From Bidens hawaiensis (taxonomy: Eukaryota; Streptophyta; Magnoliopsida; Asterales; Asteraceae): a DNA stretch of 64,000 nt. The number at the start of each line of letters is the position of its first letter. Position 1 is the first letter of the stretch. Below the pieces are notes generated by a model. That model searched no databases and had not been told where the DNA came from. It saw only the letters and a list, made by a program, of their open reading frames with translations. A program made the position numbers and the translations under genes. The stretch lies in NCBI GenBank assembly GCA_021521415.1, contig JAIQDT010001655.1, positions 472,891 to 536,890 of the forward strand, given 5' to 3'. Below, in pieces: positions 3,196-58,449 of this stretch.

Positions 3196-3268
3196 TCTAC
3201 CTTTCTATCTCTTACATTTGTTCATAACATACATACATATCGTTCATAGTCCATACATAACATTATAA

Positions 3269-3423
3269 CTTGACAGTGCGTGCAATATCCGAAGATCGTT
3301 CACGTACCAACAAGCAATCATTCTTACCTTTCATAACATACATACATATCATTCATATTTCATACATAACATTATAACTTGGCAGTACGTGCAATATCCG
3401 AAGATCGTTCACGTACTGGCAAG
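3269..3423. repeat. Pair of conserved LTR hairpins
   Basis: Two inverted repeats at 3269-3314 and 3378-3423. The second has arms CTTGGCAGTACGTG and CACGTACTGGCAAG around an 18-nt loop CAATATCCGAAGATCGTT. Both arms contain ACGTG cores. Homologous pairs occur in three other family-1 LTRs. Confidence 0.8.
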
Positions 3424-3682
3424 CAATCATTCTTACCTTTCACATAATCACATAAGACATACACTTATCACTTAGGATAAATGTATTAACAATCACATCG
3501 AGTATGCACACAGCCCCGAAAACATAACACAGAAATGGGGCTAGAGACTCACCTGAATTCGGTTCCTTTCTCTGTTTATCGTGATTCCTCTCTTTAACTG
3601 TGCTCTGCTAACTGTATATAGGTTACACGTATCAATACTCGTCTAATCTTATCTAACGGTCTAGTACTAGTTTCCTTTTACT

Positions 3683-3926: not shown

Positions 3927-4757
3927 TATCAATAGTAGCGGCGGGTTTTGATTTTAACTTCATTAACACCCATGTTCAACCCGTAACCCTTAATGATGAT
4001 GTTAATCGGTCTCCCGAACATCCCCATGGCCGTTATTGAACAAGTTTCGGCCCGAAAACGCGTAAAGGTTGGACCTTTAAGTTAAAACGTTCAATACTAG
4101 TTTAAAGTTCTCTTTTAATCGAGCCGCACATGATTATGGGTTCATTAGTTTCGTTTTGTTATCAAGTTTACAACTTTACGTTCTATTTACACCCGATCTA
4201 ATTTCGTTCTAAGTTTCAAGGTTAAACGTTACTAAAAACGTAAACTTTAAGGTAAAAGACATACCTTAAATGCTCGTTTGGATCTCGTTTAACTTGGTTA
4301 TGAACTCTCAATGTTGTATATAGCTCATGTAATAACGATATAATCCCGACTAGCATTCGTTGGACTCGGATCTTGCTCCCTCTCTCGGCGTCCGTATGTG
4401 GTGAATGTGTGTTTTTGAGTGTGTAGAGATTTATGAAAGATGGAAATGATAGTTAGGGTTTTATGGTGGTTTAAGGGGTATTTATATCCCTCAAAGCCCA
4501 TGGACCTAAGGCCCATTCCCCTTAATCCATCTTAATTAATCCAAGTCCATGATCTTTATTAAAAACTTGCTAATATTATTTAACGCTCGACAAACTAACA
4601 AAATCTTTCTTTATTTAATATTATAATATTTCGGATGTTACAAAGCATGTGTTTTTCCAACGTAACTTTTTGTTGGAAAATTGTTAGAAACTGGATTTTC
4701 CAACAAATTTCTTACGAATTCAGTTGTAGAAAAAAATCTCTTTTTCTAGTAGTGTAA

Positions 4758-15698: not shown

Positions 15699-16212
15699 TC
15701 ATTTTGGACAAGAACACATGTAATTGAGTGGCTTCTTACGAATGAGAGCTTCGGCTAAGACATTCGCTGTTTCAGAATGATAGCGAATTTCGCATTCGTA
15801 GTCGCTAAGCAACTCGTCCCATCGACGTTGTCTCATATTAAGTTCTTTTTGGTCGAAAATGTGTTGGAGACTCTTATGATCGGTAAAAACCACACATTTC
15901 CTACCATAGAGATAACGTGTCCAAATTTTCAAGGCAAATACAACAGCACCAAGATTAAGATCATGTGTAGTATAGTTTTTCTGGTAAGCCTTGAGTTGTC
16001 TCGAAGCGTAAGCGATAACCTTGCCTCGTTACATGAGAACGCAACCGAAGCGTAAGGGATAACCTTGCCATGAGAACGCAACTGAGACCTTGATTAGAAG
16101 CCTCGCAGAAAACGACGAAATCTTCATTACCTTCGGGAAGAGCAAGAATAGGAGCATTGCAAAGCATGTCCTCAAGGGTTTGCAAGGCTTCCTCTTGCTT
16201 TGACCCCCACAC
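15699..16212 (-). pseudogene. G3 Gypsy RNase H remnant
   Basis: Two minus-strand frames. 15961-16212 carries KQEEALQTLEDMLCNAPILA and FVVFCEASNQGLSCVLM, the reverse transcriptase-RNase H connection and first RNase H strand (the usual first catalytic Asp is Glu in CEAS). 15699-15932 carries [20 protein letters not shown] with the TDHKSL box and [20 protein letters not shown] duplicated, out-of-frame piece near 16010-16070 separates them. RNase H would degrade the RNA strand of the hybrid during reverse transcription; this copy is broken. Confidence 0.85.
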
Positions 16213-16995
16213 TTAAGGTTTACCCTTGTGTGTTAAAGCGGTGAGAGGAAACACGATCTTGGAAAAGTTTTGAATGAAACGACAATAATATCCCGCCAAA
16301 CCATGAAAAGATCGAACTTCGGTGGGAGACATAGGCGGCTTCCAATTCTTAACGACTTCAATCTTTGTGGGATCAACATTTTTACCCTTGTCGTTGACAA
16401 TGTGGCCTAAAAATTGAACTTCTTTAAGCCAAAACTCGCACTTAGAAAACTTGGCGTACAATTGCTCCTTACGAAGTATGTCAAGAATGGCATGAAGGTG
16501 CTCTTTGTGGTCTTTCTCGGATTTCGAATAGATTAAGATGTCATCAATGAAAACAATAACAAACTTGTCCAAGTAGGGTTTACACACACGATTCATAGGA
16601 TCCAAGAAAATCGCGGGTGCATTGGTTAGCCCAAAAGGCATAACACAGAACTCGTAATGCCCATACAAGTATGGAAAGCAGTCTTGGGGATGTCTTCTTC
16701 CTTAACACTAAGTTTATGATAACCTGAACAGAGATCAATCTCCGAGAAGCATGCTGCACCTTGAAGTTGATCGAAAAGATCATTGATGTGAGGAAGCGGA
16801 TATCGGTTCTTGATGGTAAGCTTGTTGAGTTCATCATAATCGACATACATGCGAAATTAGCCATCTTTCTTCTTAACAAACAAAACAGGTGCGCCCCAAG
16901 GAGAAGAACTCGGGCGAATAAAACCCTTGTCCGAGAGTTCTTGGAGTTGGCTCGAAAGTTCTTGCATTTCGGAGGGTGCAATACGATAAGGTCTT
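16213..16995 (-). pseudogene. G3 Gypsy reverse transcriptase remnant
   Basis: The Ty3/Gypsy reverse transcriptase is readable in order from 16995 downward: [16 protein letters not shown] palm entry, [12 protein letters not shown] (16820-16850), [33 protein letters not shown], the [11 protein letters not shown] box and the [10 protein letters not shown] active site in the 16213-16668 frame, then [11 protein letters not shown] and the thumb. A TAA stop at 16857-16859 (just before FRMYV) and a frame change near 16660 break it. The FxDD catalytic aspartates survive. Closest in style to plant chromovirus (Tekay/Del-like) polymerases, by recognition only. Confidence 0.9.
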
Positions 16996-17119: not shown

Positions 17120-17908
17120 TCATTCTTTTTCCATAACGAGAGATAAGAAGGCAACACACTTTTTGTGCAAATAACGTTGAGCTTCAAAGCACGACATAAG
17201 ATTAAGCTTGGACGTTGGAGTATCCCCGAAAATGTTGAGAATGAGGCCATTCTCGAGAGGTATACGAATGAGTTTCTCGAAAAAAACAAATTCAGCACGA
17301 TTAAAAGTTAACCAATCCATCCCTACAATAACGTCGAAACTACCCATTTGCATCAGAATGAGGTCAATAAGGAACCTGACTTTATTAAGAGTTATGACGC
17401 AATCCCGAACTACCGAATCAATAATAATAGAATTCCTGTCGGCTACTTCTATGATAAAAGACGTAGATAATTTATCCGGAGGATTATCAATAATATACGC
17501 AAAATCCAAAGAAATAAAACTCTTATCGGCACCTGTATTAAATAATACCGAAGAATAATGATTATCAATGAGAAACGTACCATTCACCACGTCGCTAGAG
17601 CTTTGAGCTTGATTCACATTCATCTTAAAAGCACGACCATTATACCCTTGAGGGGTTTGTGCAACTTGGTTCAAAGGTGGAGCTTGAATATTTGGAGCTT
17701 GAGTTGATGCAGATAGAGGGGCCATAAGCTGAGGTACCGGAGGAGCATAGGTTTGTGGTGCATAAACTGGAGGAGCTTGGGGTTGGTATGTTTTCACTTG
17801 ATAGGCTTGAGCAATATAGTATGGTGCAGGGTACACTTGGGCTTGTGGTGGATAGGCAACATAATGAGGTGCATGCATGATATGTGATTGATGAGCATAG
17901 GTAAACAA
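17120..17908 (-). pseudogene. G3 Gypsy protease with Pro/Tyr/Gln linker
   Basis: An open frame of about 260 residues. Residues 1-95 are a Pro/Tyr/Gln/Ala-rich linker following the last Gag zinc knuckle. Residues about 105-235 form a retropepsin-like domain: GTFLIDNHYSSVLFNTGADK with FIS following, ADRNSIIIDSVV, and FDVIVGMDWL. The active site is expected as DTGA; here it reads NTGA, so the catalytic Asp is Asn, a change compatible with methylation-driven C-to-T decay. The frame then runs toward the polymerase and ends at 17120. Inactive as a protease in this copy. Confidence 0.85.
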
Positions 17909-18250
17909 TGGGCAAGTGTTGCGGAGATGGTTAGGGTCTCCACAATGGTAGAAAGCACGGTTATTAGGAACACCGGGTTGATCAAGGTTAGTAGTAGTTC
18001 TAGCAGTAGGGGATGTAGACCATGTTTGAACGACTTGCGAACCAGGCGGTGCACGACAAATGTTAGCAAGGTGACCGTAACGGTTGCACTGAGTGCACAG
18101 TCGGCAAGGGGATTAAGAAGGATGGTGTCGGTTACATTTGGCACAAAGGGGATGAGGACCAATGTAGGCATTTTTATTGGGGCATTAGGGTTATTGGGAG
18201 GTTGGTTGTTGAGTTGGTTGAAGAAGTAGTTTTCGTGATTGGTCTTACGT

Positions 18251-18288
<38 letters not shown>

Positions 18289-19096
18289 CTTGTGGCGTTA
18301 TTGTTGTTGTAATCAGGCTTGGTTTTGGCTTTGGGATCGGTGGAGGAGTCGGTCTTAGTTTTGTTGGGAGTAGGCTTGGAATCCTTGCGAAACAAGGTTC
18401 CATCCCGAACATGACTATCAGTGAGAGAAGCAGCTATGTCCATCGCCTTATCGATGGTTAAAGGGTCACCACTGACCAAGGAATCACGGAAAATGGTCGG
18501 TAAACCGCGAATGTATTTCTGAATGTCGCGAGACTCGGGGGTTACCAGGTGGAGTACGATTTGGCTAAGTTAACCGAAATAGCTAGAGTAGGTGGAGTTA
18601 TCCCCACCAACTTGTTTGAGCTCCCAAAACTCGGCCTTAAGCCTCTGCAGCTCTTGTTCAGGGCAAAATTCCTTCTTCATTGCCTCTTTGAGATCTCCCC
18701 AAGGCATGGCTACCACCAAATCAGGTCCTTTGTTAGCCTTCAAAGCATTCCACCATGTGAAGCTCGATCCTCAATAACGCTCGAGGCGAACTTAGTCCAT
18801 TTGGCGTCCGGTCATTCACAGTGGATGAACACATTCTCCATCTTTTCAAACCATTGTAGCAGCTTGGTGGCGTTTTCTTCACCACGAAAGGAAGTGGGTT
18901 TGGTACTCAAGAAGTTACAGAAATCATAGTTGTTCGGTGCAGCTGAAGTAGCAGATCCATTGGAGTTGTGGCTTTGGATTTGAGTGATAATCGTGGGCAT
19001 AGAAGCAAAAAACTCCTTAGTGACTCTAGCAGCCAAGCGGCGATCGTGAGAACCAGATGAACGTTAGCGTCGACGGTGAATTCTGAGCGAAGACAT
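17909..19096 (-). pseudogene. G3 Gypsy gag remnant
   Basis: Starts at an ATG at 19096-19094 (MSSLRIHRRR), meets a TAA after ten codons, then continues in frame with LAARVTKEFFASMPTIITQI (18970-19036) and the retrotransposon gag core KLLQWFEKMENVFIHCE. From 18810 to 18480 the core is frameshifted. 18174-18479 is a Thr/Asn-rich tail with a microsatellite-encoded Asn/Thr run, and 17909-18171 carries cysteine modules (CAKCNRHH, broken by a stop, then CTQCNRYGHLANIC and HCGDPNHLRNTC). It would build the virus-like particle and bind element RNA. The same start is seen in the gag of the element at 49132-58444. Confidence 0.85.
18251..18289. repeat. (TTG)n microsatellite in gag
   Basis: About 13 TTG units; on the coding minus strand this is a CAA/AAC/ACA run inside the low-complexity Gag tail. 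Confidence 0.9.
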
Positions 19097-19266: not shown

Positions 19267-19595
19267 GTTGGCCTCCAATGAGCTTTCCATGGCAATTTGA
19301 ATGACCCAACAAAACTGACAAACAAAAGTAATGGAGTTGGATGACCCATGACCGTTAAATGGAATTTTAACTGTACCAACTAAATAACAATTTAAAATAA
19401 GTGGGTTGGATGACCCATGAGCGGTACATGATATTTTAACTGTCACAACCAATTAAAGAATTATCAATACAATGAAGTTGGACGGCCCATGAGCGTTCCA
19501 TGGCATTTTAACTGTACCAACTTAAATAACGAACTAATGAAACAAAATTTGAGTAGTTGGAGCATCTCGTGAACCACCACATTGATTACTCCAAC
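19267..19595 (-). repeat. Five-unit hairpin array in G3 leader
   Basis: Five inverted repeats at 19267-19310, 19336-19380, 19405-19450, 19477-19521 and 19556-19595 (unit starts 69, 69, 72 and 79 bp apart). Each is bounded by GTTGG or a variant and CCAAC; the inner ones hold an inner CCATG..CATGG stem. The array lies between the primer site (20228) and the gag ATG (19096). The leader of the element at 49132-58444 has an equivalent five-unit array. Confidence 0.85.
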
Positions 19596-19596
19596 A

Positions 19597-20226
19597 AAAA
19601 TACGAAAATAAGTTGAGAAATGGATAGTCGGGATTCCCAACTAACCAGTTAAAAACAAAATAATACAATAATCATAAAGTTTACTGAATTTAAGCCATGA
19701 ACCACCGTAAATTTGGATTAAAAGTATTGTACGGAGTGCAACCACTAATGTGGTCACGTTTGACAGCCTAGGGTGTCCATCATATGACAATTGTGTCCCT
19801 CTATGGCCTATAAGATCGAGTACTGTGGTCAGGTTATCCTCCAGGTAAGGAATAACATCTTACCTTGGGTTATTGAAACCGTTTTGCCAAGGCTCGACTA
19901 ACAGTTCTCTCCCCCTTCTAGTTACTACAGGACATGCCACATAACCTAGCCTTAAGGTGAAGGATTAAAAACAAAAGTAGGTAATTCTTAAGGAATTTCC
20001 CAAAATAAAAGCAATCTAATTTGATTTTTAAATTAAATAAAAATTTGAATCTTAAGGCCTAGCGTCGAAGTAGTGTGTGTGCATGACAATAATATAGTAA
20101 TCAAAATAATTATTAACTAAGAAAGCAGTAAACAATTATATGGAACACGTAAGGTAAGCAAATAAGCATGTATTGGGATCCTAAGCATGTTACTATGGCA
20201 TCTCTAACGACCTATCTTAAACATTC
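19597..20226 (-). other. G3 untranslated leader
   Basis: No gene or clear repeat. It is the stretch between primer site and hairpin array, mostly AT-rich with a few long pyrimidine runs. Confidence 0.5.
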
Positions 20227-22953: not shown

Positions 22954-23564
22954 TATATATATATATATAAGCAATGATATAATAAGAAGTAGGCTTTTCC
23001 TAAGAAGTATCAGAAGTGTGTTTTCACCAGTAAATCAAATAAAACACACTGCGCAATAAACACACCGCATAATAAACACACTTTCTATATCCATAATAAG
23101 ATCAACATATCTAATGCACAAAATTATTTCTTGTAAGGCCCCGTTACCGGTGCCCTACAATTGGTCGTTGGATTTACTCATTAACATAGTTTTAAATATC
23201 AGAGTTAATAAAAACATTCGCGGAATATTAAAAACACTCAAACCATTACATTACATAACCATATTTCTTGTCTTAACGAGCATTCCAATCATTTAAGATA
23301 AAACATTGTCTTTAAAATAACATAACATTTCCTGGAGATGCCAGCTTCATCAAGTCCATGTCATGTGTCTCCCCTCAAGCGATCTTCCTCAATCTACTCA
23401 CCTGCGAGCATACTAAAGGTCAGATACGCTGAGTAAGTTCTAATTAATCATACAACATACAATCTGTTCTCATACTTGCACACGAGCCCGAAGGTGTGTA
23501 TGTTATTCATACCTTGCTTTACATACATAACTATCCATACTACTTAAAGAGCCTTCCGCCCTAT

Positions 23565-23760
23565 AACCTCACAGATATTAGAAGGGTCTGGTCCCCAACA
23601 TCACAGATATTATTAGGGTCTGGTCCCTACCATCACAGATATCATAAGGGTCTGGTCCCTATCCTCACAGATATTATTAGGGTCTGGTCCCTATCCTTAT
23701 AGATATTATTAGGGTCTGGTCCCTATCCTCACAGATATTATTGGGGTCTGGTCCCCTTTA
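23565..23760 (-). repeat. 33-bp LTR minisatellite, about 6 units
   Basis: Units CACAGATATTATTAGGGTCT with GGTCCCTATCCT spacers; sister array at 31015-31205 in the other LTR of G4. Confidence 0.9.
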
Positions 23761-24519
23761 ATTCATGCTACTGTAACATACCTGTCTTTTACATATTTTC
23801 CTTGACAATACGTGAAATCTCCGAAGAGCGTTCACAATCCGTCAACATATCATACTTACCTCGTACTTATTCAACCATACATCATTTATACATCATATAT
23901 ATTCATACGTACATAATTCATACATCATATATATCAATCATAACTTTAACTACCACCTGACGGTACATGCAATATCCGAAGATCGTTCACGCACCGTCAA
24001 GCAATCATCATTCATACATCATACGAAGCATACACTTACCACTTAAGGTAAGTGTATTAACTATCACATCGAGTATGCACACAGCCCCGAAAACATAACA
24101 AGGAAGTGGAGCTAGAAACTCACTGAATGCGGTTACGTTCACCGTTAATAGTTATTCCCTTCTTTAGTTGTGCACGACTAACTGTATAATAATTACACGT
24201 ATCAATTATCTATCGATACCCATATCGCATTTCTAGTTTAATTATAACCCTTAATGAATGGGGTCCGGGGGCAGCGCCCCTGGCAGCGGGGTTCTAGGGT
24301 CGGCAGCCCCTAGCAGGGTCCAAGGGACAGAGCCCCTGGCTGGGGTCGAGCTGCCAGGTCAGCTTGGAAAAATTTTATTTCCAACAACTGTCTTATCACA
24401 TTTTCCATTAGAATTTTTGAATCATTAATTAATTTGCTAACTTAAAAGTACAAGGGCTTCTTTGTAATTAAATCATTCTTATTCTAAATCCCGGGCCATT
24501 CAGTCATTTTGTTGAACTT

Positions 24520-27855: not shown

Positions 27856-28038
27856 AATCTATAATATAATAATCATAATCATAACTCAAATCCCATCGAA
27901 ATCTTAATTCATCAAATCATGTTATGTCTTTATAGTTAATTCATATTAATATTATATAATAGGAATCCTTGACGGTGTATTCCGAAGGGTTCGTCTTTCT
28001 CACCATCATCCTCAGTTATATTTTGTTCATCCGATCAG

Positions 28039-28512
28039 GTGAGTATTTCACTCCCCTCTTTTTACTTATTTTTAACCTTTTTGGGGACATATGCGTTATA
28101 TTTATTTTATTACTATATATTACTCAACTTGCAACTGTTGTCACTTGTGTTTAACAATTTATACCTTACTTGTTTATGTGCTTACTTGCTTTATATGCTT
28201 CCGCATTCGGAGAGGTCCAAAATAATCTCAGTCTAGTATGACCATACGACCGTCGTAGTGGCCGGCGTCCGACGCATTGACAATGGTTTCACCGACACCT
28301 CATTTTTGGTAACCAATGCCCATTCGCATGGCAGCGGTTTAGCCCTTTCTTTATGGTTTGATTGATTTGTTTATATGCTTGGTTAAATTGCTTATCACTC
28401 GACACAGTCTGCTCTCTTATTTATTTATTATTATATAAAATCATGAAAATCTGGTGTTTTACTCACTCAACCTTGTGTTGACAAAACTATTTTATTTTCA
28501 ACGCATATGCAG
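28039..28512 (+). other. Intron-like segment in family-2 LTR fragment
   Basis: Donor GATCAG|GTGAGT at 28038/28039 and acceptor GCATATGCAG ending 28512, 474 nt, with the conserved GTTTTACTCACTCAAC about 40 nt upstream of the acceptor as candidate branch region. Confidence 0.5.
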
Positions 28513-28753
28513 GTCATCGTATGATGTAGTTGAAGTTAGAAGATCGTTTAAGGACTTATGCTAGAAGAAATTCAATGAGACAATTAAATTTATGAACTTT
28601 ATTTGTGTTTGTTTTGAGGTATTGTAATGAATAATTGTTTATTTGAAATTATTAAATAGATATTGAAACTTATAATGTTGCATGATAGTAACCTTGTGAG
28701 CTATGACAATCAGATCACGCCCCGACATTTCCGTCTTAGGTTGGGGTGTGACA

Positions 28754-30125
28754 AAACTTCTATTCGCACCCGCATCAAATAATACTGAAGTAGAAATACC
28801 ATTTACTAAGAACGTACCGGTCACAACATCAAAATTCTGTCTGACTTGTTCCGGGGTCAGCATGTAGGCTCTTGTCCTCGGCCTCGCTTGATCAGCATCT
28901 TTCTTTTCACTTCCTCCAGCTTCACCTTCGGTGCACTCTCTTGCTGTATGGCCTGTTTTGCCATATTTGTAACATGCTAGCTTCGCACCACACTCATTGG
29001 CATAATGCCCCACCTTCACACACTTGTAACATGCATTAGACCCCATCCTGCATTTCCCACCATGAGCCTTTCCACATTGGCTACAAACATCAAAAATCTG
29101 ACTCCACTTGCACTCACCACCGTGCGTCTTTCCGCAGATCTTGCACGACCACTTCTCCCAAACTCTCGACTGCTTATTCTTGGGGTTCCACAACTGAGTA
29201 CCGGGTCATTTAGCAGGAGCGACCCACTTCTTATCCTTCCTTTCTTTCACTACTACCTCTTCTGTCGACAAGTCATCATAAACCATTTCTGCCAACCCTA
29301 TAGCAGAATCAAAATTACCCGGTCTACCAGTCTTGACCAAGACGCGAACATTCTGCGGCAATCCCCTAAGGTAACACTTGATCCGCTTGGCCTCAGTGTT
29401 CACCATGCCTGGAACCAACCTTGACATACGGTTGAATTCAGTGGTGTATTCGCGGTGTGTCATCTTACCCGCTTTCAGACTCAGAAATTTCATTTCAACC
29501 CTTTCAACCTCAGCATCCGTACAGAATCGCTTCATCACTAACTCCTTCAGACCATCCCATCTCAAAGCCTTGATCTCTTCTCGACTCTTCCTCTGCTCAA
29601 CCGACTCCCACCAGTACATTGCTTCTTCACCGAATGACTGAGTAGCGTAACCCACAACCTGGTCGGGACGGCACTCGCTAATTCGGATAATCTTGTCCAT
29701 CGCGGTTATCCATTGGAGAGTAGTGATTGCGTCTCCCAAGCCAGTTAGCTTTGGCGGATCACAGCCCTTGAAGGACTTGTAGTTGCATCCGCCTAAGTCT
29801 CTTTTCCTATTATCGACTTTTACCGACTTAACCACACTTGATTCCTCTTTCTCCTCCTCATCATCCTTCTTACTTTTTTCCCCAGACTTCTCAGTAGACT
29901 TTTCGGGATTCATGTTTTTCACAGTAGTTGCTACCGCTTGAGCAATGGCAGTTTGAATTGCGGGATCCAGTTGAACACCTTCGTTGTTACTCGGATTTCG
30001 ACCAGCTGCACTTCCTTCGCCTTATTGTTAGTGGCTGCCTCTACTGACGGTTCTCGGACAGCGCGTGGTCTACCACGACGTCCCACACATCCTCCCCTTC
30101 CAGCAGCTTTCTTAGCTCCAGCCAT
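28754..30125 (-). pseudogene. G4 Gypsy gag and start of protease
   Basis: Starts at ATG 30125-30123 (MAGAKKAAGRGG), basic N-terminus; a frameshift near 29990 leads into MKNMNPEKSTEKSG (from 29922) and the complete gag domain YKSFKGCDPPKLTGLGDAIT ... MSRLVPGMVNTEAKRIKCYL. A TGA at 29206-29208 interrupts it. Then follow two compact CX2CX3HX3C modules (CKICGKTHGGEC, CSQCGKAHGGKC), the knuckle CYKCVKVGHYANEC, a second knuckle with Tyr for its second Cys (CYKYGKTGHTAREC), and the protease entry VLFDAGANRSFV at about 28765-28800, where DAGA stands for the usual DTGA/DSGA. The reading is cut at 28754 by the foreign LTR fragment. Nearly complete Gag, but one frameshift and one stop. Confidence 0.9.
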
Positions 30126-30574: not shown

Positions 30575-32270
30575 TTGTAAGGCCCCGTTACCGGTGCCCG
30601 ACAATTGGTCATTGTATTTACTCATTAACATAGTTCTAAATATCATAGTTAATAAAAACATTCGCGGAATATTAAAAACACTCAAACCATTACATTACAT
30701 AACCATATTTCTTGTCTTAACGAGCATTCCAAATCATTTAACATAAAACATTGTCTTTAAAATAACATAACATTTCCTTGAGATGCCAGCTTCTTCAAGT
30801 ACATGCCATGTGCCTCCCCTTAAGCGATCTTCCTCATTCTACTCACCTGCGTGCGTACTAAAAGTAAGCTACGCTGAGTGAATTCTAATTAATCATACAA
30901 CATACAATCTGTTCTCATACTTGCACACGAGCCCGAATGTGTGTACGTTATTCATACCTTGCTTTACATACCTAACTATCCATACTACTTAAAGAGCCTT
31001 CCGCCCAATAACCTCACAGATATTATAAGGTTCTGGTCCCCAACATCACATATATTATTAGGGTCTAGTCCCTACCATCACAGATATCATAAGGGTCTAG
31101 TCCCCATCCTCACAGATATTATTAGGGACTGGTCCCTGTCCTCACAAATATTATTAGGGTCTGGTCCCTATCCTCACAGATATTATTGGGGTCTGGTCCC
31201 CTTTAATTCATGCTACTGTAACATACCTGCCTTTTACTATTATCTTGACAATACATGCAATCCCCGAAGAGCGTTCACGTACCGCAACATATCATACTTA
31301 CCTCGTACTTATTCATTCATACATCATTTATACATCATATATATTCATACGTACATCCTTCATACATCCTATATATTAATCATAACTTTAACTACCACCT
31401 GACAGTACATGCAATATCCGAAGATCGTTCACGCACCGCCAAGCAATCATCATTCATACATCATACTAATCATACACTTACCACTTAAGGTATCTGTATT
31501 AATTATGACATTGAGTATGCACACAGCCCCGAAAATATAACAAGGAAGTGGGGCTAGAAACTCACCTGAACGGGGATACGTTCACCGTTAATAGTTATTC
31601 CCTTCTTTAGCTGTGCACGACTAATTGTATAACAATTACACGTATCAATTATCTATCAATACCCATATCGCATTTCTAGTTTAATTATAACCTCAACGAA
31701 CGGGGGTCCAGGGGCAGCGCCCCCAGCAGCGGGGTTCTAGGGGCAGCAGCCCTAGCAGGGTCCAAGGGACAGAGCCCCTGGCTGGGGTCGAGCTGCCAGG
31801 TCAGCTTGGAAAAAATTTATTTCCAACAACTATCTTATCACATTTTCCATTATAATTTTTGAATCATTAATTAATTTCCTGACTTAAAAGTTCAAGGGCT
31901 TCTTTGTAATTAAATCATTCTTTTTCTAAGTCCAGGGACCATTTTGTCATTTTTTTGAACTTCTAGTTCGTTACACTGCTCTTAACGAATTGGGTTATTA
32001 TAACGAACTGGTCCTTGTAACGAATTGGACCTTATAAAGAATTGGTCCCTTGACGAATCAGTCCACATAACGAACCAGTCCATATAACAAATCAGTGCAT
32101 ATAACAATACAGTCTAGGTAACGAATTGGACTTTCTAATTCGTTATCTCTTTAACAAACGGTCATAGCGAATCGGGGATAATTCGTTATCCTTTTCCATA
32201 GCGAACTGGGACCCGAAGTAAGGCTAGTTTGATAAGATTCCACTAACGAATCCCTTGACGAATCACCTCT

Positions 32271-49131: not shown

Positions 49132-50110
49132 TGTAACAACTCGGTTTTTCCAATTTATATTAACTCGACCCGTTATTATTCGGGAAATTTATCCAAGAAA
49201 ATATCGCGTTTATTGAGTAGTTTAACTATTATTATATTAATATCTAATTAAATATATACTATATAATTATAACTTCCAATATATTACAACTTTTACCCCA
49301 AACTAAACTTTCACCTATTTGTGTTTCTAACTCAAATCTTGAAGGACCAATCTGCAAAATTTAATATAACCCCTTACTAGCAATCCGTTTACCATCACCC
49401 TTAGACCCGTATCCATCTTGTAAACCCAAACCCACATCTTGACTTGACCCTCAATTCTCGCGTTCAATATGGTAATTGAATCAAATTTATGTTAATCTTT
49501 CCTATTTCAGCCTCACCGACAACTTGATTAGGAAACAATGATCAACGTGACACGAATTGCTTATTTGACCAAACCGCCAATAACCTCGATTTTTATTAAA
49601 CATAATCTGCGCATAATAATTCAATTCATCACTCATACACAATCATTATGCCATCGCTAAGCAAAACCCCTTATTTAATCATATTATCATTGTTGTTGTA
49701 TCATCGTTCTGGATCCACTTCAAGCCGTCGCCTGCCTATACAAATTAACACACTCTGATTCATCGATTAAGGTAATTAATTGCGAAACTAAGTTCTTGTC
49801 TAATGCACAGACAATAACCTTAAACATAATTAACTTATAATCGTCTGCTAATGTGGATTCGTGTCCGCTTTTGTGCCGTCAGAACCTACTAGCTGTTTGT
49901 CGTCGATTCATCATCATATCAGGTAACAAATGCTTGTAATACGATCGGTTTCCATCAATCATCAATAACCCTATGGTTAATTCAACAAACATACACCGGA
50001 TTTAATCAATTGATGAATCTAGGGTTCTTGGGTTTTGGGGGTTTCTATTTCGTTTTACATATTCTATTATGTTTCCATTATTAACTCAAATGACATGCTA
50101 CACTTGTTCG

Positions 50111-50158
50111 GTGGTATGTTGGTTGAGCTCAGGGGCGGGTTGCGGGTTCGAACCCGGC
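50111..50158 (+). other. tRNA-like A/B-box module
   Basis: TATGTTGGTTGAGCTC (D-arm-like) and GGGTTCGAACCC (B-box/T-arm) at tRNA-like spacing inside the LTR. Confidence 0.5.
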
Positions 50159-50315
50159 AACCCTGATTCTTAGTTTTTATTTTCTTTTTAACGGTTCTTG
50201 TTTAATTATCATAATTAATCTTAATAAATGAAAAAATTATAATTATTAAATAAACGTTATATTATCTAACCAACATCTTTAAGTTGTCGTTTCTCGGCAA
50301 TTAACCTCGCTTACT

Positions 50316-50357
<42 letters not shown>

Positions 50358-50367
<10 letters not shown>

Positions 50368-50559
50368 AATAAGAAGTAAAACTATCATAAAAAATGTAAG
50401 AAGTGGTTTTTACCCTTAAAAAAATAAAACACACCGAACGAAAAACACATCGAACAAAAAACACACTAATAATATCCACCATAAGATGATCAAATCCAAC
50501 GCCCGATATTACTTCTCACACTTCTTACAAATAACTCACTTCTTATTCTAACCTCACAC
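50358..50559. mobile_element. Small TA-flanked MITE
   Basis: About 202 bp with inverted ends AGGTTAAAATAAGAAGT and ACTTCTTATTCTAACCT, sitting in the (TA)n/(GA)n tract of the LTR; absent from the 3' LTR, so it inserted after the element did. Relative of the MITE at 22970-35190. Confidence 0.75.
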
Positions 50560-50561
50560 TA

Positions 50562-50603
<42 letters not shown>

Positions 50604-51120
50604 CTATCTAGTATACGAATTAAATAGATTTTTATTAAAAGATTTAAAGAACATATTTATTTATATATTATTACATATTATAACTAAATAATTACCCATT
50701 ATTATTATGATTATTTATTTATACATTCATATTTTATTTATTTGGATAATTATAAGTTTATTTTATATCATATTTAGTTATCTAAACTATTAGTTTATAA
50801 ATTTGATTATATGGTTATCATATCAAGTAAACAAGGGTAATTTTAAAATATTAAAAGTAATGACTTTAATAAACAAATGTTAAACAATAATGTTAATCTT
50901 TGCAATAATAATTATTATAGAAATCCATCTATAGAAATTAATAAACATCCTAATCCCAAACATATCTCAAATCACCTGACACTTTAATTCATTATACACA
51001 TTGTCTCATTATTAATTAATTCATATTACTATTATTTAACTAGGAATCCTTGACGGTATATTTCCGAAGAATTTATCTTTCTCTCATCATCATCACTTAT
51101 ATTTTCGTACATCCGATCAG

Positions 51121-51602
51121 GTGAGTAATCACTCCCCCTTTTTACTTATTTTAAATCTTTTGGGGACATATGCGTATCGTATCATATTTACATATTATCT
51201 AGTATTCAAAACCGCAACTGTTTAATCTTGTGTGTATATCAGTTTATGCCTAACTTGCTATTTGCTTGCTTACTTGCTTTATTTGAACCGCATTCGGAGA
51301 GGTCCAACATATTCTCAGTCTAGTATGATCATACGATCGTCGTCGTGGCCGACGTCCGACGCATTGACAATGGTTTCACCGACACCTCACTTTTTGTAAC
51401 ATGCCCATTCGCATGGCAATGGTTTAGCCCTTTCTTTATGGTTGATTGTTTGTGTATGTGCTATGGCTTAACTGCTTATCTCACAAGAACAGTTTACATC
51501 TTTCTTCATTTATTATATATTATATTTATGTGGTGTCTTAAACTGGTGTTTTACTCACTCAACATGTGTTGTTGACAAAAATATATTTTATAGCATTTGC
51601 AG
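51121..51602 (+). other. Intron-like segment in 5' LTR
   Basis: Donor GATCAG|GTGAGTAATC and acceptor TAGCATTTGCAG|G; 482 nt; GTTTTACTCACTCAAC about 45 nt before the acceptor. Confidence 0.5.
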
Positions 51603-51836
51603 GTTATTATCTTGGTTATTTAGCAAGATGGAGATCATGTAGAGATGCCTTTTAGGATACAAATAATTAATCATTGTTGTAGCTTCTTTATATTTGATGT
51701 ACTTAACTGTAATTGTTTCATATAAATAAATAAAATAGATATTGTCATTTATTAATCTTGCTTGATAGTAACCTTTGAAAAGCTGTGAGCAATCAGTTCG
51801 CCCCGGCATTTCCTCCGTAGGTCGGGGTGTGACATA

Positions 51837-51850
51837 TTGGTATCAGAGCC
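51837..51850 (+). other. tRNA-Met primer binding site
   Basis: TTGGTATCAGAGCC two bases after the LTR terminus. Confidence 0.92.
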
Positions 51851-52290: not shown

Positions 52291-52638
52291 GTCGGGTGTA
52301 AAACCCATGGGACGCCATGGACACGCCAACTATACATTTGCACAATTCGTTATACTTGCGATATTTTGTTGGAAAATTATCAGCCGTTATGATACACAAG
52401 GTGTTTCAACTACTTATGTTTGAGTTCGTTTATTCGTTATTTAGTTTGGTCGGTTAAATCGCCATGTAACACTCATGGGCTGACAAACTTAATTAATTCA
52501 TTGAATTCGTTAATTAAGTTGGGCCATTCAAATTGCCATGTAACACTCATGGGAAGCCAACTTACACGTTTGTTTTGGTTTTGGTATGCTAAAAAGTTGG
52601 GGAAACAAAATGCCATGGAAAGCTCATGGGAAACCCAA
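52291..52638 (+). repeat. Five-unit hairpin array in leader
   Basis: Units 52291-52330, 52368-52410, 52444-52488, 52516-52563 and 52596-52638 (starts 77, 76, 72 and 80 bp apart). Best unit: AAGTTGGGCC..GCCAACTT enclosing CCATGTAACACTCATGG. Counterpart of the array at 19267-19595. Confidence 0.85.
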
Positions 52639-54368
52639 CACATCGAAGAACATTCGTTATTTGTTTATTTGTTTGTTTATTTGATTTTATACGAAATGAT
52701 TTATGACTTGATTTAATTACTCAATTATTTTATTATTCAATTATTCAATTTATCAATTCCTTACTTACTAAATCATTTTTGAATCAAGATCTATTGATTC
52801 GATCTATTCATATACTCAACATATTTATTCTCCTGATCAGATACAAATTCTCCATTTATCAAAACCCGGTTATCATAAGACAATTAAAAACAATTTACAC
52901 TCTATCGATTTTCACATATTCATCTGATCACGTTATTATAATATCAATACCTTAAGTGATTTCAATAATATAGCACAATTTAATACTCATGATATCATAT
53001 ACATAAACCATTAAACATATTTTAAGCATTCAACCTCAAATTCTAATTCGTTAAAAACATATTAAACTTTGATAAAAATTTTCTCTCATCAAATCAACTT
53101 ATCGATTATCGATTTAGATTCTAACTTATCCTTAAGTTATAAATAAAAATCAACATAACATATCTAAGTTTCGTTTTACACAATAACTCATATGAAATCT
53201 AAACAATTATCCAATTTCCTCATTAAATCACATCTTTATTAATCATAGAATGTTTTTTTCAACATCAGACAACATCAATTATTTATTCTCTATAACCGCC
53301 TCATGACCACATGTTTAGTCAGGGAGATAGCTCCCGCGATCTCTAAAATATAAACTCAATTTCTAACACGTAAATACAATCAACTAAATCTTGTTTCATT
53401 AAACTAAATTGTTGGTAATTTTGATCCATTTACCCCTACTCATTCTTATGACAATAATAGTAACAAACGCAAGTCTAAACATAAACTATGTGCCATTAAT
53501 CAAATTAGCAACCAATCTCAACAAAATCATAGCGTCTCAATCAAGAAACTTTACGCAAAAATCCACTCGTTACGCTTCACTTGCCACTCTCACTATTCAA
53601 TTTAACCCTCATATCATTTTGTACCCCATGTAATCGTTCGATTATCTTGTTAATACTTTCCACGTACCACAAAACGTTCCACAACTGTCTATGCCACCAA
53701 GTTCTAAAGCCTATGCTACGACGTTTTCTCCAATTTCATACCTTTCTACCTATAATTACTAACTATGGAAGTCTTAATCACCTACGCCATGTGTGTTCTC
53801 GATCCAATCGTATTCAACAAGCTCAAAATTTTCAAACTTTTTTTTATTAAACCCTACTTTGTAACCTAATCAAAATATTTCAATTCAATCAACTTCAATG
53901 ATTCAAATTTTTATAGATCTACTTAATCAAGTTATGTTAAAACAGATAAATCAAATATATCATAACTAAGTTTATCAAAGAAGATGTTTTTGTCATTTTA
54001 TCTAAACATATTTTATCTTTCTCGGTCGTTCATTATAACAAATATTTATTTAATCTTTGAATTTAATTTTTTTTTATTCTAATAGCTTATTGATTTTAAG
54101 TGATTATGCTCATACAATAAAATCTATCTTTACAAAATACAACTTTCTATAATATTGTACTCCTAGTTTATTTCCCGACCTCTCATTTAATAACTATTTA
54201 CGCAATGTACTCCCTCATCTTATAAACTTTTACTTTTAATCCTCATGACGCAATTCCTCTTACTTCTTAAGACAACATTGTTAACTCCACCTAATTAAAC
54301 ATTTTACTATTCTTATGATTTCCTCAATTTATCCTTCATCTTATAAATCCTCATTTTTGATCGCTAGA
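52639..54368 (+). other. AT-rich interior, no gene seen
   Basis: About 1.7 kb of AT-rich sequence between leader array and gag start that G3 lacks (in G3 the array ends only 171 bp before the ATG). Short frames near 53409-53850 show no recognisable domain. Confidence 0.5.
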
Positions 54369-55190
54369 ATGTCTCATTCAAGAAACCACTGTCATCCTCG
54401 ACATCAATCGTTTGATTCTCACAACCACCGTATAGCTGCTTGGATAGCCAAAGAGTTAACTGCTACAATCCCTAGGATAGTGACCCAAATCCAAAACATC
54501 AATGCAACCGATTCAACTTTTCCCACTAATACTTCTGCTGGTGACTACAAACCATCTACCTCGACTCATCCACACAACAAGAGACGTAAGAACATTGCTG
54601 CAACAAATCCTACCCACCCGCAAGTCTCCTCAAACAAGAAACCTTACCTCGGTTCTTTTCCGCCATGCTCCATTTGTAACCGTCTTTACTCGGTTAAATC
54701 CCTATGCCGTTGTTGCATCTAATGTAATCGTTGTGTCCACCTTTCTAACACTTGCCATATCCCGCCTACTGCACAAGTTGTTCAACAACAACCTACCCCT
54801 CATGCTCAACCTGATGTTTCTAATACCCGTGCTTGCTACCATTGTAAGGACCCAAATCACCTCCATAATGCGTACCCTCAACTTACCCAATCTCATCAAG
54901 CCTAATCCACAACTACACCATACTACTTGAACCATGCTTACTAGGCTCAAACCCATCCACCTCAGGTCCCTCAAGCTCCTCCCGTCAATAAATGATAACC
55001 TTACTTAACCCAACACTACCAATCCCAGCAACCACAAGCACAAGTTTACCAGACATATTTCCACCAAACAACCTTCTTGCAAACTGTTCAAGCTCACGTT
55101 ATTCAAGCTACCCCAAATCGATCTACCTCAACTGCTCCAACTCCTAAGAATACAACTGCTCATGGTGCTTCAAGTCAAGTCTATTAAGCT
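54369..55190 (+). pseudogene. Gag remnant lacking the capsid core
   Basis: ATG at 54369; the first 50 residues (MSHSRNHCHPRHQSFDS, IAAWIAKELTATIPRIVTQI) match the G3 Gag start. After TSAGDYKPSTST the protein jumps to a basic/Pro region and cysteine modules (CSICNRLYSVKSLC, CNRCVHLSNTC, CYHCKDPNHLHNAYP), so the central capsid domain, readable in G3 as QWFEKMENVF, has been deleted. Stops near 54720, 54905 and 54930 break it further. It then passes to a Gln/Pro/Thr-rich linker ending about 55190. No protease follows. It could contribute RNA-binding modules at most. Confidence 0.75.
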
Positions 55191-55959: not shown

Positions 55960-55973
55960 AAAGTAGGGGAGCC
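55960..55973 (+). other. Polypurine tract
   Basis: AAAGTAGGGGAGCC directly before LTR start TGTAACAACTCG. Confidence 0.85.
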
Positions 55974-56940
55974 TGTAACAACTCGTTTTTTCCAATTTAT
56001 ATTTACTCGACCCGTTATTATTCGGGAAATTTATCCAAGAAAATATCACGTTTATCGAGTAATTTAACTGTTATTATATTAATATCTAATTAAATATATA
56101 CTATATAATTATAACTTCCAATATATTACAACTTTTACCCCAAACCAAACTTTCACCTATTTGTGTTTCCAACTCAAATCTTGAAGGACCAATCTGCAAA
56201 ATGTAATATAACCCCTTACCAGCAACCCGTTTACCATCACCCTTAGACCCGTATCCATCTTGTAAACCCAAACCCACATCTTGACTTCACGCTCAATTCT
56301 CGCGTTCAACATGGTAATTGAATCAAATTTATGTTAATCATTTCTATTTCGGCCTCACCGACAACTTGATTAGGAAACAATGATCAAACGTGACACGAAT
56401 GGCTTATTTGACCAAATCGCCAATAACCTCAATTTTTATTAAACATAATCTGCGCATAATAATTCAATTCATCACTCATACACAATCTTATGCCATCGCT
56501 AAGAAAAACCCCTTGTTTAATCATATTATCATTGTTGTTGTATCGTCGTTCTGGATCCACTTCAAGCCGTCGCCTGCCTATACAAATTAACACACTTTGA
56601 TTCATCGATTAAGGTAATTAATTGCGTAACTAAGTTAGTCTCTAATGCACAAACAATAACCCTAAACATAATTAACTTATAATCGTCTGCTAATGTGGAT
56701 TCGTGTCCGCTTTTGTGCCATCAGAACCTGCTAGGTGTTCATCGTCGATTCACCATCATATCAGGTAACAAATACTTGTAATACGATTGGTTTCCATCAA
56801 TCATCATTAAACCTATGGTTAATTTAACAAACATACAACAGATTTAATCAATTGATGAATCTAGGGTTCATGGGTTTTGGGGGTTTCTATTTCGTTTTAC
56901 ATATTCTAATATGTTTCCATTATTAAATCAAATGACATGC

Positions 56941-57012
56941 TCGACCAGCTGGGTAGTCTGTTGGTTGAGCTCGGGGGGGGGGGGGGGGGGGAGGTCGCGG
57001 GTTCGAACCCGA
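56941..57012 (+). other. tRNA-like module with poly-G insertion
   Basis: TAGTCTGTTGGTTGAGCTC resembles a tRNA D-arm and GGTTCGAACC (57000-57009) the T-arm; 19 consecutive G at 56973-56991 separate them. Confidence 0.5.
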
Positions 57013-57167
57013 CAACCCTGATTCTTAGTTTTTATTTTCTTTTTAATGGTTCTTGTTTAATTATCATAATTAATCTTAATAAATGAAAATTTATAATTAT
57101 TAAATAAACGTTATATTATTTAACCAACATCTTTAAGTTGTCGTTTCTCGGCAATTAGCCTCGCTTA

Positions 57168-57169
<2 letters not shown>

Positions 57170-57215
<46 letters not shown>
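57170..57215. repeat. (TA)n tract of family-2 LTR
   Basis: About 23 TA units; the same tract is interrupted by DNA transposons in the LTR copies at 49132 and 20243. Confidence 0.95.
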
Positions 57216-57216
<1 letters not shown>

Positions 57217-57731
57217 TAGCTATCTAGTATACGAATTGAATAGATTTTTATTAATAGATTTAAACAACATATTTATTTATATATTACTACATATTATAAC
57301 TAAATAATTACCCATTATTATTATGATTATTAATTTATACATTCATATTTTATTTATTCGGATAATTATAAGTGTATTTTATATCATATTTAGTTATCTA
57401 AACTATTAGTTTATAAATTTGATTATATGGTTATCATATCAAGTAAACAAGGGTAATTTTAAAATATTAAAAGTAATGACTTTAATAATGTTAAACAGTA
57501 ATGTTAATCTTTGCAATAATAATTATTATAGAAATCCATCAATATAAATTAATAAACATCCTAATCCCAAACATATCTCAAATCACCCGACACATTAATT
57601 CATTGTACACATTGTCTCATTATTAATTAATTCATATTACTATTATTTAACTAGGAATCCTTGACGGTATATTTCCGAAGAATTTATCTTTCTCTCATCA
57701 TCATCACTTATATTTTCGTACATCTGATCAG

Positions 57732-58212
57732 GTGAGTAATCACTCCCCATTTTTACTTATTTTAAATCTTTTGGGGACATATGCGTATCGTATCATATTT
57801 ACATATTATCTAGTATTCAAAACCGCAACTGTTTAATCTTGTGTGTATATCAGTTTATGTCTAACTTGCTATTTGCTTACTTGCTTTATTTGAACTGCAT
57901 TCGGAGAGGTCCAACATATTCTCAGTCTAGTATGATCATACGACCGTCTTAGTGGCCGGCGTCCGACGCATTGACAATGGTTTCACCGACACCTCAGTTT
58001 TGGTAACCAATTCCCATTCGCATGGCAACGGTTTAGCCCTTTCTTTATGGTTGATTGTTTGTGTATGTGCTATGGCTTAACTGCTTATCTCACAAGAACA
58101 GTTTACATCTTTCTTCATTTGTTATATATTATATTTATGTGGTGTCTTAAATTGGTGTTTTACTCACTCAACATGTGTTGTTGACAAAAATATATTTTAT
58201 TCGCATTTGCAG
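57732..58212 (+). other. Intron-like segment in 3' LTR
   Basis: Donor GATCAG|GTGAGTAATC and acceptor CGCATTTGCAG|G, 481 nt, as in the 5' LTR. Confidence 0.5.
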
Positions 58213-58449
58213 GTTATTAGCTTGGTTATTTAGCAAGATGGAGATCATGTAGAGATGCCTTTTAGGATACAAATAATTAATCATTGTTGTAGCTTCTTTA
58301 TTTTTGATGTACTTAACTGTAATTGTTTCATATAAATAAATAAAATAGATATTGTCATTTATTAATCTTGCTTGATATTAACATTTGAAAAGCTGTAAGC
58401 AATCAGTTCTCCCTGGCATATTCGCCGTAGGTTGGGGTGTTTCACCCTG

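Follow-up and report, generated by a model that had tools for sequence, protein, structure and literature searches.

The row of evenly spaced hairpin units in the leaders of two retroelements of the window (the whole stretch of 64,000 nucleotides that was analysed, C1655:472891-536890 in a searched genome of 3.47 Gb in 15,902 contigs) is very probably a conserved RNA structure, as judged from covariation and from arm-swap tests in which descent is ignored. An RNA structure had been suggested before, and the suggestion is now supported by an excess of compensatory changes across unit types and leader types. We infer, at about an even chance, that the row acts as RNA, in cis on the genomic RNA of a plant Ty3/Gypsy group, and most likely as a multi-hairpin packaging signal bound by Gag. 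The relevant features of the window are:

49132-51834 (approximate ends), plus strand: 5' LTR of the 52-kb element (LTR-LTR alignments)
51838-51850, plus strand: primer-binding site TGGTATCAGAGCC of the 52-kb element (pattern match)
52291-52330, plus strand: unit 1, GTCGGGTG..., with inner CCATGG/CCATGG arms (isolated fold z -2.2)
52368-52410, plus strand: unit 2, a variant with inner stem TATCA/TGATA (isolated fold z -0.2)
52444-52488, plus strand: unit 3, GTTTG-g-TCGG / CTGA-CAAAC with inner CCATG/CATGG (z -2.2)
52518-52561, plus strand: unit 4, GTTGG-g-C / G-CCAAC with inner CCATG/CATGG (z -1.1)
52596-52639, plus strand: unit 5, GTTGGG/CCCAAC with inner CCATG/CATGG and loop GAAAGCT (z -2.7)
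54417-55040, plus strand: gag remnants of the 52-kb element, an N-terminal piece and a zinc-knuckle (CCHC) piece (tblastn with G3 pieces)
55972-58441 (approximate ends), plus strand: 3' LTR of the 52-kb element (LTR alignment)
19622-19646, minus strand: extra short hairpin GGTTAGTTGGG...CCCGACTATCC of G3, upstream of the array (sequence; low local folding energy)
19267-19595, minus strand: five-unit array B1-B5 of G3 (sequence, isolated folds)
17120-19063, minus strand: gag pieces, zinc knuckle and aspartic protease of G3, in broken frames (domain matches, position, relatives)
15699-16701, minus strand: reverse transcriptase and RNase H pieces of G3 (RVT_1 and RT_RNaseH)
27870-28753, plus strand: LTR-like stretch of a type-C leader (78% identity to the LTR of the 52-kb element)

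The 52-kb element combines a pair of LTRs (49132-50335/55974-57189 and 50560-51830/57176-58440, 94-96% identity in the LTR-LTR alignment), a primer-binding site that is presumably of the tRNA-iMet type, a purine tract preceding the 3' LTR and an internal region of 4.1 kb. Its gag remnants, about 1.8 kb beyond the array, showed 33% and 41% identity to G3 (tblastn, E 1e-7 and 3e-12), and the G3 gag and protease pieces matched nothing else in the internal region. Among three more copies of this kind, L071 has both remnants downstream, L073 the zinc-knuckle part only and L072 neither, and reverse transcriptase and RNase H pieces gave zero matches downstream in all three. With its LTRs, primer site and purine tract, with only parts of gag, with no match to the G3 protease piece and with no reverse transcriptase or RNase H match in the three sister copies, the element resembles the LARD and TR-GAG elements as far as these are characterised in the excerpts consulted, and it is probably non-autonomous; the difference is that the defining point of the present elements is their common leader array. 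In type A, to which the 52-kb element belongs, the N-terminal and zinc-knuckle parts of gag survive (window 54285-54905) and the middle of gag was not found there; it is conceivable that a short nucleocapsid-like protein is made.

We classify G3 as a decayed Gypsy copy, on the basis of its domains: zf-CCHC and RVP_2 match within 17120-18112 (minus strand), two further gag pieces at 18174-18569 and 18812-19063 (minus strand) were assigned from their location and from matches in relatives, and the order CCHC, aspartic protease, reverse transcriptase, RNase H is that of Ty3/Gypsy. Several other repeats were seen in the window. At its end, 28753, the type-C LTR-like stretch abuts a weak protease match on the opposite strand (window 27870-28872), an arrangement that looks like an insertion of one element into another. 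Two 1.55-kb repeat copies, 93% identical and 7.4 kb apart, each contain a 32-bp tandem repeat (23501-23819 and 30946-31264), a 109-bp repeat occurs at 3221-3438 as two tandem copies of 93% similarity and, in weaker form, at 23908 and 31350, and a lone 33-bp GTTGG...CCAAC inverted repeat is found at 4672-4704, outside any array.

The original prediction described five evenly spaced GTTGG..CCAAC repeats in the 52-kb leader, the inner ones with a nested CCATG..CATGG stem, and as many units in G3. Five units are indeed present in each, with starts 74-78 bp apart in the 52-kb element and 69-74 bp apart in G3 (units at 19595-19556, 19521-19477, 19449-19405, 19380-19336 and 19310-19267, minus strand), so the even spacing holds. 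The stems themselves are less uniform than described: exact GTTGG...CCAAC repeats of unit size account for 2/5 units in the 52-kb element and 4/5 in G3, whereas the exact nested CCATG/CATGG stem was found in units 1, 3, 4 and 5 of the former and only in unit 2 of the latter. The outer stem variants in the 52-kb element are GTCGG...GCCAAC with a C-A mismatch (unit 1), an end in TCAAC (unit 2) and GTTTG...CAAAC, a paired change (unit 3). Nested 5+5-bp inverted repeats occur three times in each array, a number that was reached by 7/500 (52 kb) and 1/500 (G3) dinucleotide shuffles; CCATG forms the inner stem in 3/3 of these in the 52-kb element and in 1/3 in G3. The position past the primer site and ahead of gag was also as predicted, since the distance from primer site to array is 450-640 nt in both elements, the location expected of a psi signal, and the likely gag ATG of G3 lies about 170 nt downstream of the array.

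A conserved number of five had to be given up. G3 has the further hairpin at 19646-19622, which we identify by its sequence as a truncated counterpart of unit I, and the type-E leader L099 has inner hairpins at 377, 515, 587, 656 and 728 with a variant between the first two, i.e. six before the end of the stretch.

The array is not confined to the two window copies. Searching the genome with the 52-kb array gave 3205 first-look candidates; 40 were scored and, the window's own copy (included in the 40) aside, showed 93-98% identity. The G3 array gave 3685 candidates with 40 scored, at 86-92% identity apart from its own copy, which is again included. Type C, reached via the LTR-like stretch at 27870-28753, gave 5283 candidates, 40 of them scored, and the array was present in 5/5 leaders fetched. 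Leaders were also sampled blind to the array, by a 35-base pattern spanning the LTR end and the primer site that occurs at 1182 places (control pattern 0); 40 leaders were fetched from the first 44 places, the four omitted being three adjacent members of a tandem group on C1 and a type-A copy that was in the set before. By BLAST, 31/40 of these leaders match the array, and they add two leader types, which we label D and E. Canonical units (see below) were not called in L096, L097 and L117, so that 28 leaders with 74 units remained; L096 and L097 may represent one duplicated region.

The nine leaders without an array match by BLAST are diverse. L089 and L109 resemble array-bearing leaders upstream and then diverge, L127 has one stretch in common with L089, L091 and L095 match each other in a short repeat (among the matches listed), and L093, L102, L112 and L125 gave zero BLAST matches. 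The L091 leader lies in a region (C1:1099143-1108235) where LTR-end/primer-site matches recur four times on one strand at intervals of about 3.0 kb, an arrangement suggestive of a tandem repeat of a retroelement segment.

The canonical unit begins with GUUGG, one bulged base, a dinucleotide XY and a largely A-rich stretch of about 10 bases. The inner hairpin, CCAUG and CAUGG around a loop of 7 nt, comes next, and after a few further bases the unit closes with X'Y' and CCAAC. The XY/X'Y' pair is AC/GU in B2, B4 and unit IV of type D and CC/GG in most B5 and in unit IV of type C, while unit III of type C has UCGG/CCGA behind GUUUG/CAAAC; units I and II have different inner stems and count as variants. 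Terminal loops tend to be specific for the position, GAAAGCU being found in the last called unit of 22/28 sampled leaders and UAACGCU mostly in earlier ones. Folded alone, the ten window units have z values from -0.1 to -4.0, and the 74 canonical units have a mean fold z of -1.28 versus -0.51 for 295 control pieces of the same leaders. The folding energy of whole arrays was dropped as support, as the 361-nt arrays have z values of only -1.31 and -0.87 versus shuffles; global fold predictions of these arrays mix units. No RNA family of Rfam 15, the retrozyme hammerhead included, matched in the window at the gathering score, and one exact pattern searched in viral contigs gave zero relatives.

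The strongest argument for an RNA structure comes from the outer stem. Only the inner stem-loop was used for calling units (a 7-nt loop starting with T or G followed by A or G, no more than one mismatch in each inner arm), and the outer arms were anchored separately by likeness to GTTGG/GTTTG and CCAAC/CAAAC, which favours these letters and not their joint choice. From the outside in, the five outer pairs (offsets 0 to 4) are formed in 67, 72, 72, 67 and 71 of the 74 units, and the fourth (offset 3) is G-C in 48 and U-A in 18. The flank pair is formed in 50/74 (A-U 45, U-A 3; main mismatches C-A 13 and A-A 6). Beyond the bulge, the first extension pair is formed in 69/74 units as U-A (23), A-U (17), C-G (17), U-G (6) or G-C (6), the second in 60/74 and the third and fourth in 34 and 47, respectively; the G-C class of the first pair comes from the final unit in types A and C, for which a six-pair stem without a bulge is an equally valid reading. 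In extension pairs 1 and 2 together, 129/148 cells are paired versus 27-65 when the arms are slid by 1-3 bases. When arms were swapped between units, the true assignment was equalled by 79/200,000 permutations for the ten unit types of A and B, by 24/5040 for the seven canonical unit types and by 243/100,000 for 45 distinct sampled arm pairs, descent being ignored in all three tests. The number of independent double changes is small, perhaps four to six by our own count. Compensation had been proposed as a check for both stems: it is seen in GTTGG/CCAAC and above all in the inner extension, whereas CCATG/CATGG, exact in 49/74 units (partly by construction, as the caller allowed one mismatch per arm), varies little and is therefore uninformative for covariation.

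Three other comparisons did not add support. Compensation among copies of one unit was absent except in B3, and in A3 and A4 the own arms are even slightly worse than swapped ones; this would be expected if copies decay after insertion. Of the 30 copies of B3, 15 have G-C and 12 have A-T as the flank pair, which ranks 13th of 85,078 column pairs; the change tracks a lineage split visible in other columns. Unit II, found in 71/115 sequences, was dropped as a source of extra covariation because of a split outcome: own arms are better than swapped arms in types B and D (-10.9 versus -4.6) and not in types A and C (-6.0 versus -6.4). A higher conservation of units than of linkers was not seen between types A and C, for which conservation in the array (0.90-0.93) slightly exceeds that of the following sequence (0.84-0.87) and hardly exceeds that of the preceding leader (0.86-0.92).

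Most units are alike across unit and linker (alignment scores 5-36 versus a shuffled 99% level of 7.3), most clearly B2, B3 and B4 (scores 30-36), and for this reason the number and spacing of the units seem to stem partly from tandem duplication. The array could even be nothing but a by-product of such duplication, or a binding site at the DNA level, with its pairing unselected. The decay of the copies of one unit without compensation and the ordinary folding energy of the arrays would fit this explanation, but descent alone leaves the joint changes on both sides of the stem unexplained, in particular the five pair types at the first extension pair, and we consider it improbable.

The array accompanies elements with gag, with gag remnants and without gag. 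The N-terminal gag sequence was found within the fetched flank of 26/30 type-B loci and of 0/40 type-A loci, ten of the type-A flanks covering only about 0.6 kb. Downstream of L133 and of both type-E leaders the N-terminal and middle parts of gag are present, L129, L131 and L132 (type D) have the zinc-knuckle part without these two, and L130 has a weak match to the N-terminal part. Both type-C downstream stretches lack any gag match, despite reaching the sequence that adjoins the 3' LTR in type A. Types A and C behave like derivatives that depend on the proteins of a partner and have kept the array.

This distribution bears on a role in translation. Upstream AUGs, AUG-UAA start-stops among them, would be masked or exposed by the hairpins, and gag synthesis would be tuned through stalling, shunting or reinitiation. 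Of the 23 AUGs in the G3 leader, 9 fall within the array; the 52-kb array contains 12, including two AUG-UAA. The presence of AUG-UAA in 37/74 units keeps this explanation alive, and AUGUAA in the plant 5' UTR of NIP5;1 stalls ribosomes according to the excerpt consulted (PMC11915504). Compared with NIP5;1 as described there, the AUGUAA of the array is placed within a conserved hairpin and is not conserved itself: in 10/74 units AUG has become GUG (GUG-UAA), while the outer clamps of these units still form 66/70 pairs. Together with the retention of the array in type-C elements without a gag match, this makes translation control rather unlikely, and we prefer a cis-acting signal because the array is present in gag-less elements.

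Dimerisation, in which CCAUGG palindromes would start the pairing of two genomic RNAs, appears still less likely. Unit 1 of the 52-kb element carries CCAUGG in both arms, and the RNA of yeast Ty3 is described, in the excerpt consulted, as dimerising via a short palindrome close to the 5' end (PMC11381356), but a kissing loop would not require as many as five or six units, neither of the common loops UAACGCU and GAAAGCU is palindromic, so that a palindromic apical loop in each unit was not found, and the CCAUGG palindrome is absent where the loop begins with U. The conserved structure in a transcribed leader would equally suit a role in nuclear export, localisation, splicing control or help in reverse transcription, and nothing separates such roles from packaging; as no specific evidence was found for export, localisation, splicing or reverse transcription, we give them little weight.

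In the preferred reading, that of a packaging signal, the outer clamp (GUUGG-bulge-XY / X'Y'-CCAAC) would be free to change its sequence as long as pairing holds, and would hold an A-rich 5' internal loop and the nearly constant inner stem-loop CCAUG-(UAACGCU or GAAAGCU)-CAUGG. Because paired changes in the clamp go along with a near-constant inner stem-loop, the unit resembles a protein-binding site that is presented several times. The five or six tandem units might then be repeated sites for one RNA-binding protein, the likeliest ligand would be the zinc-knuckle part of Gag, and the array would serve as a modular encapsidation signal. Non-autonomous derivatives would have kept it since it lets the Gag of gag-bearing relatives pack their RNA.

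Retroviral psi signals likewise comprise several Gag-binding stem-loops in the interval from primer site to gag; these are unlike one another, whereas the units of the array are paralogous and evenly spaced. The analogy that best supports packaging by Gag, a step for which the chances seem balanced, is with BARE2 of barley, a Ty1/Copia element without Gag that keeps packaging and dimerisation signals and occurs in BARE1 particles, according to the excerpts consulted (PMC3735527). As a gag-less parasite that retains packaging signals, BARE2 is like the gag-less carriers of the array; the differences are that BARE elements are Copia and not Gypsy, that the excerpts mention no row of paralogous hairpins and that packaging was shown for BARE and would here follow by analogy (PMC3735527). 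Yeast Ty3 is closer by type, being Gypsy-like with cis sequences for replication that include the 5' end of the RNA, and differs in that the excerpts mention no repeated hairpin array (PMC11381356, PMC4974528); even in yeast, the packaging sequences of Ty3 are described there as not precisely defined (PMC11381356). Structured packaging signals are of a known kind. Neither a packaging signal of a plant Gypsy element nor an evenly spaced row of paralogous hairpins in a plant Gypsy leader was found in the open-licence literature, among the matches listed.

More tentatively, the array may represent a modular encapsidation code of five or six paralogous bulged hairpins that is common to gag-bearing elements and to protein-poor or protein-less parasites in one genome, with clamps that drift by compensation, an inner stem-loop that is held and loops that are specific for their position. 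With its covarying clamps and steady core, the repeated hairpin offers a short RNA for direct tests, and the array could explain the spread of protein-less elements in large plant genomes.
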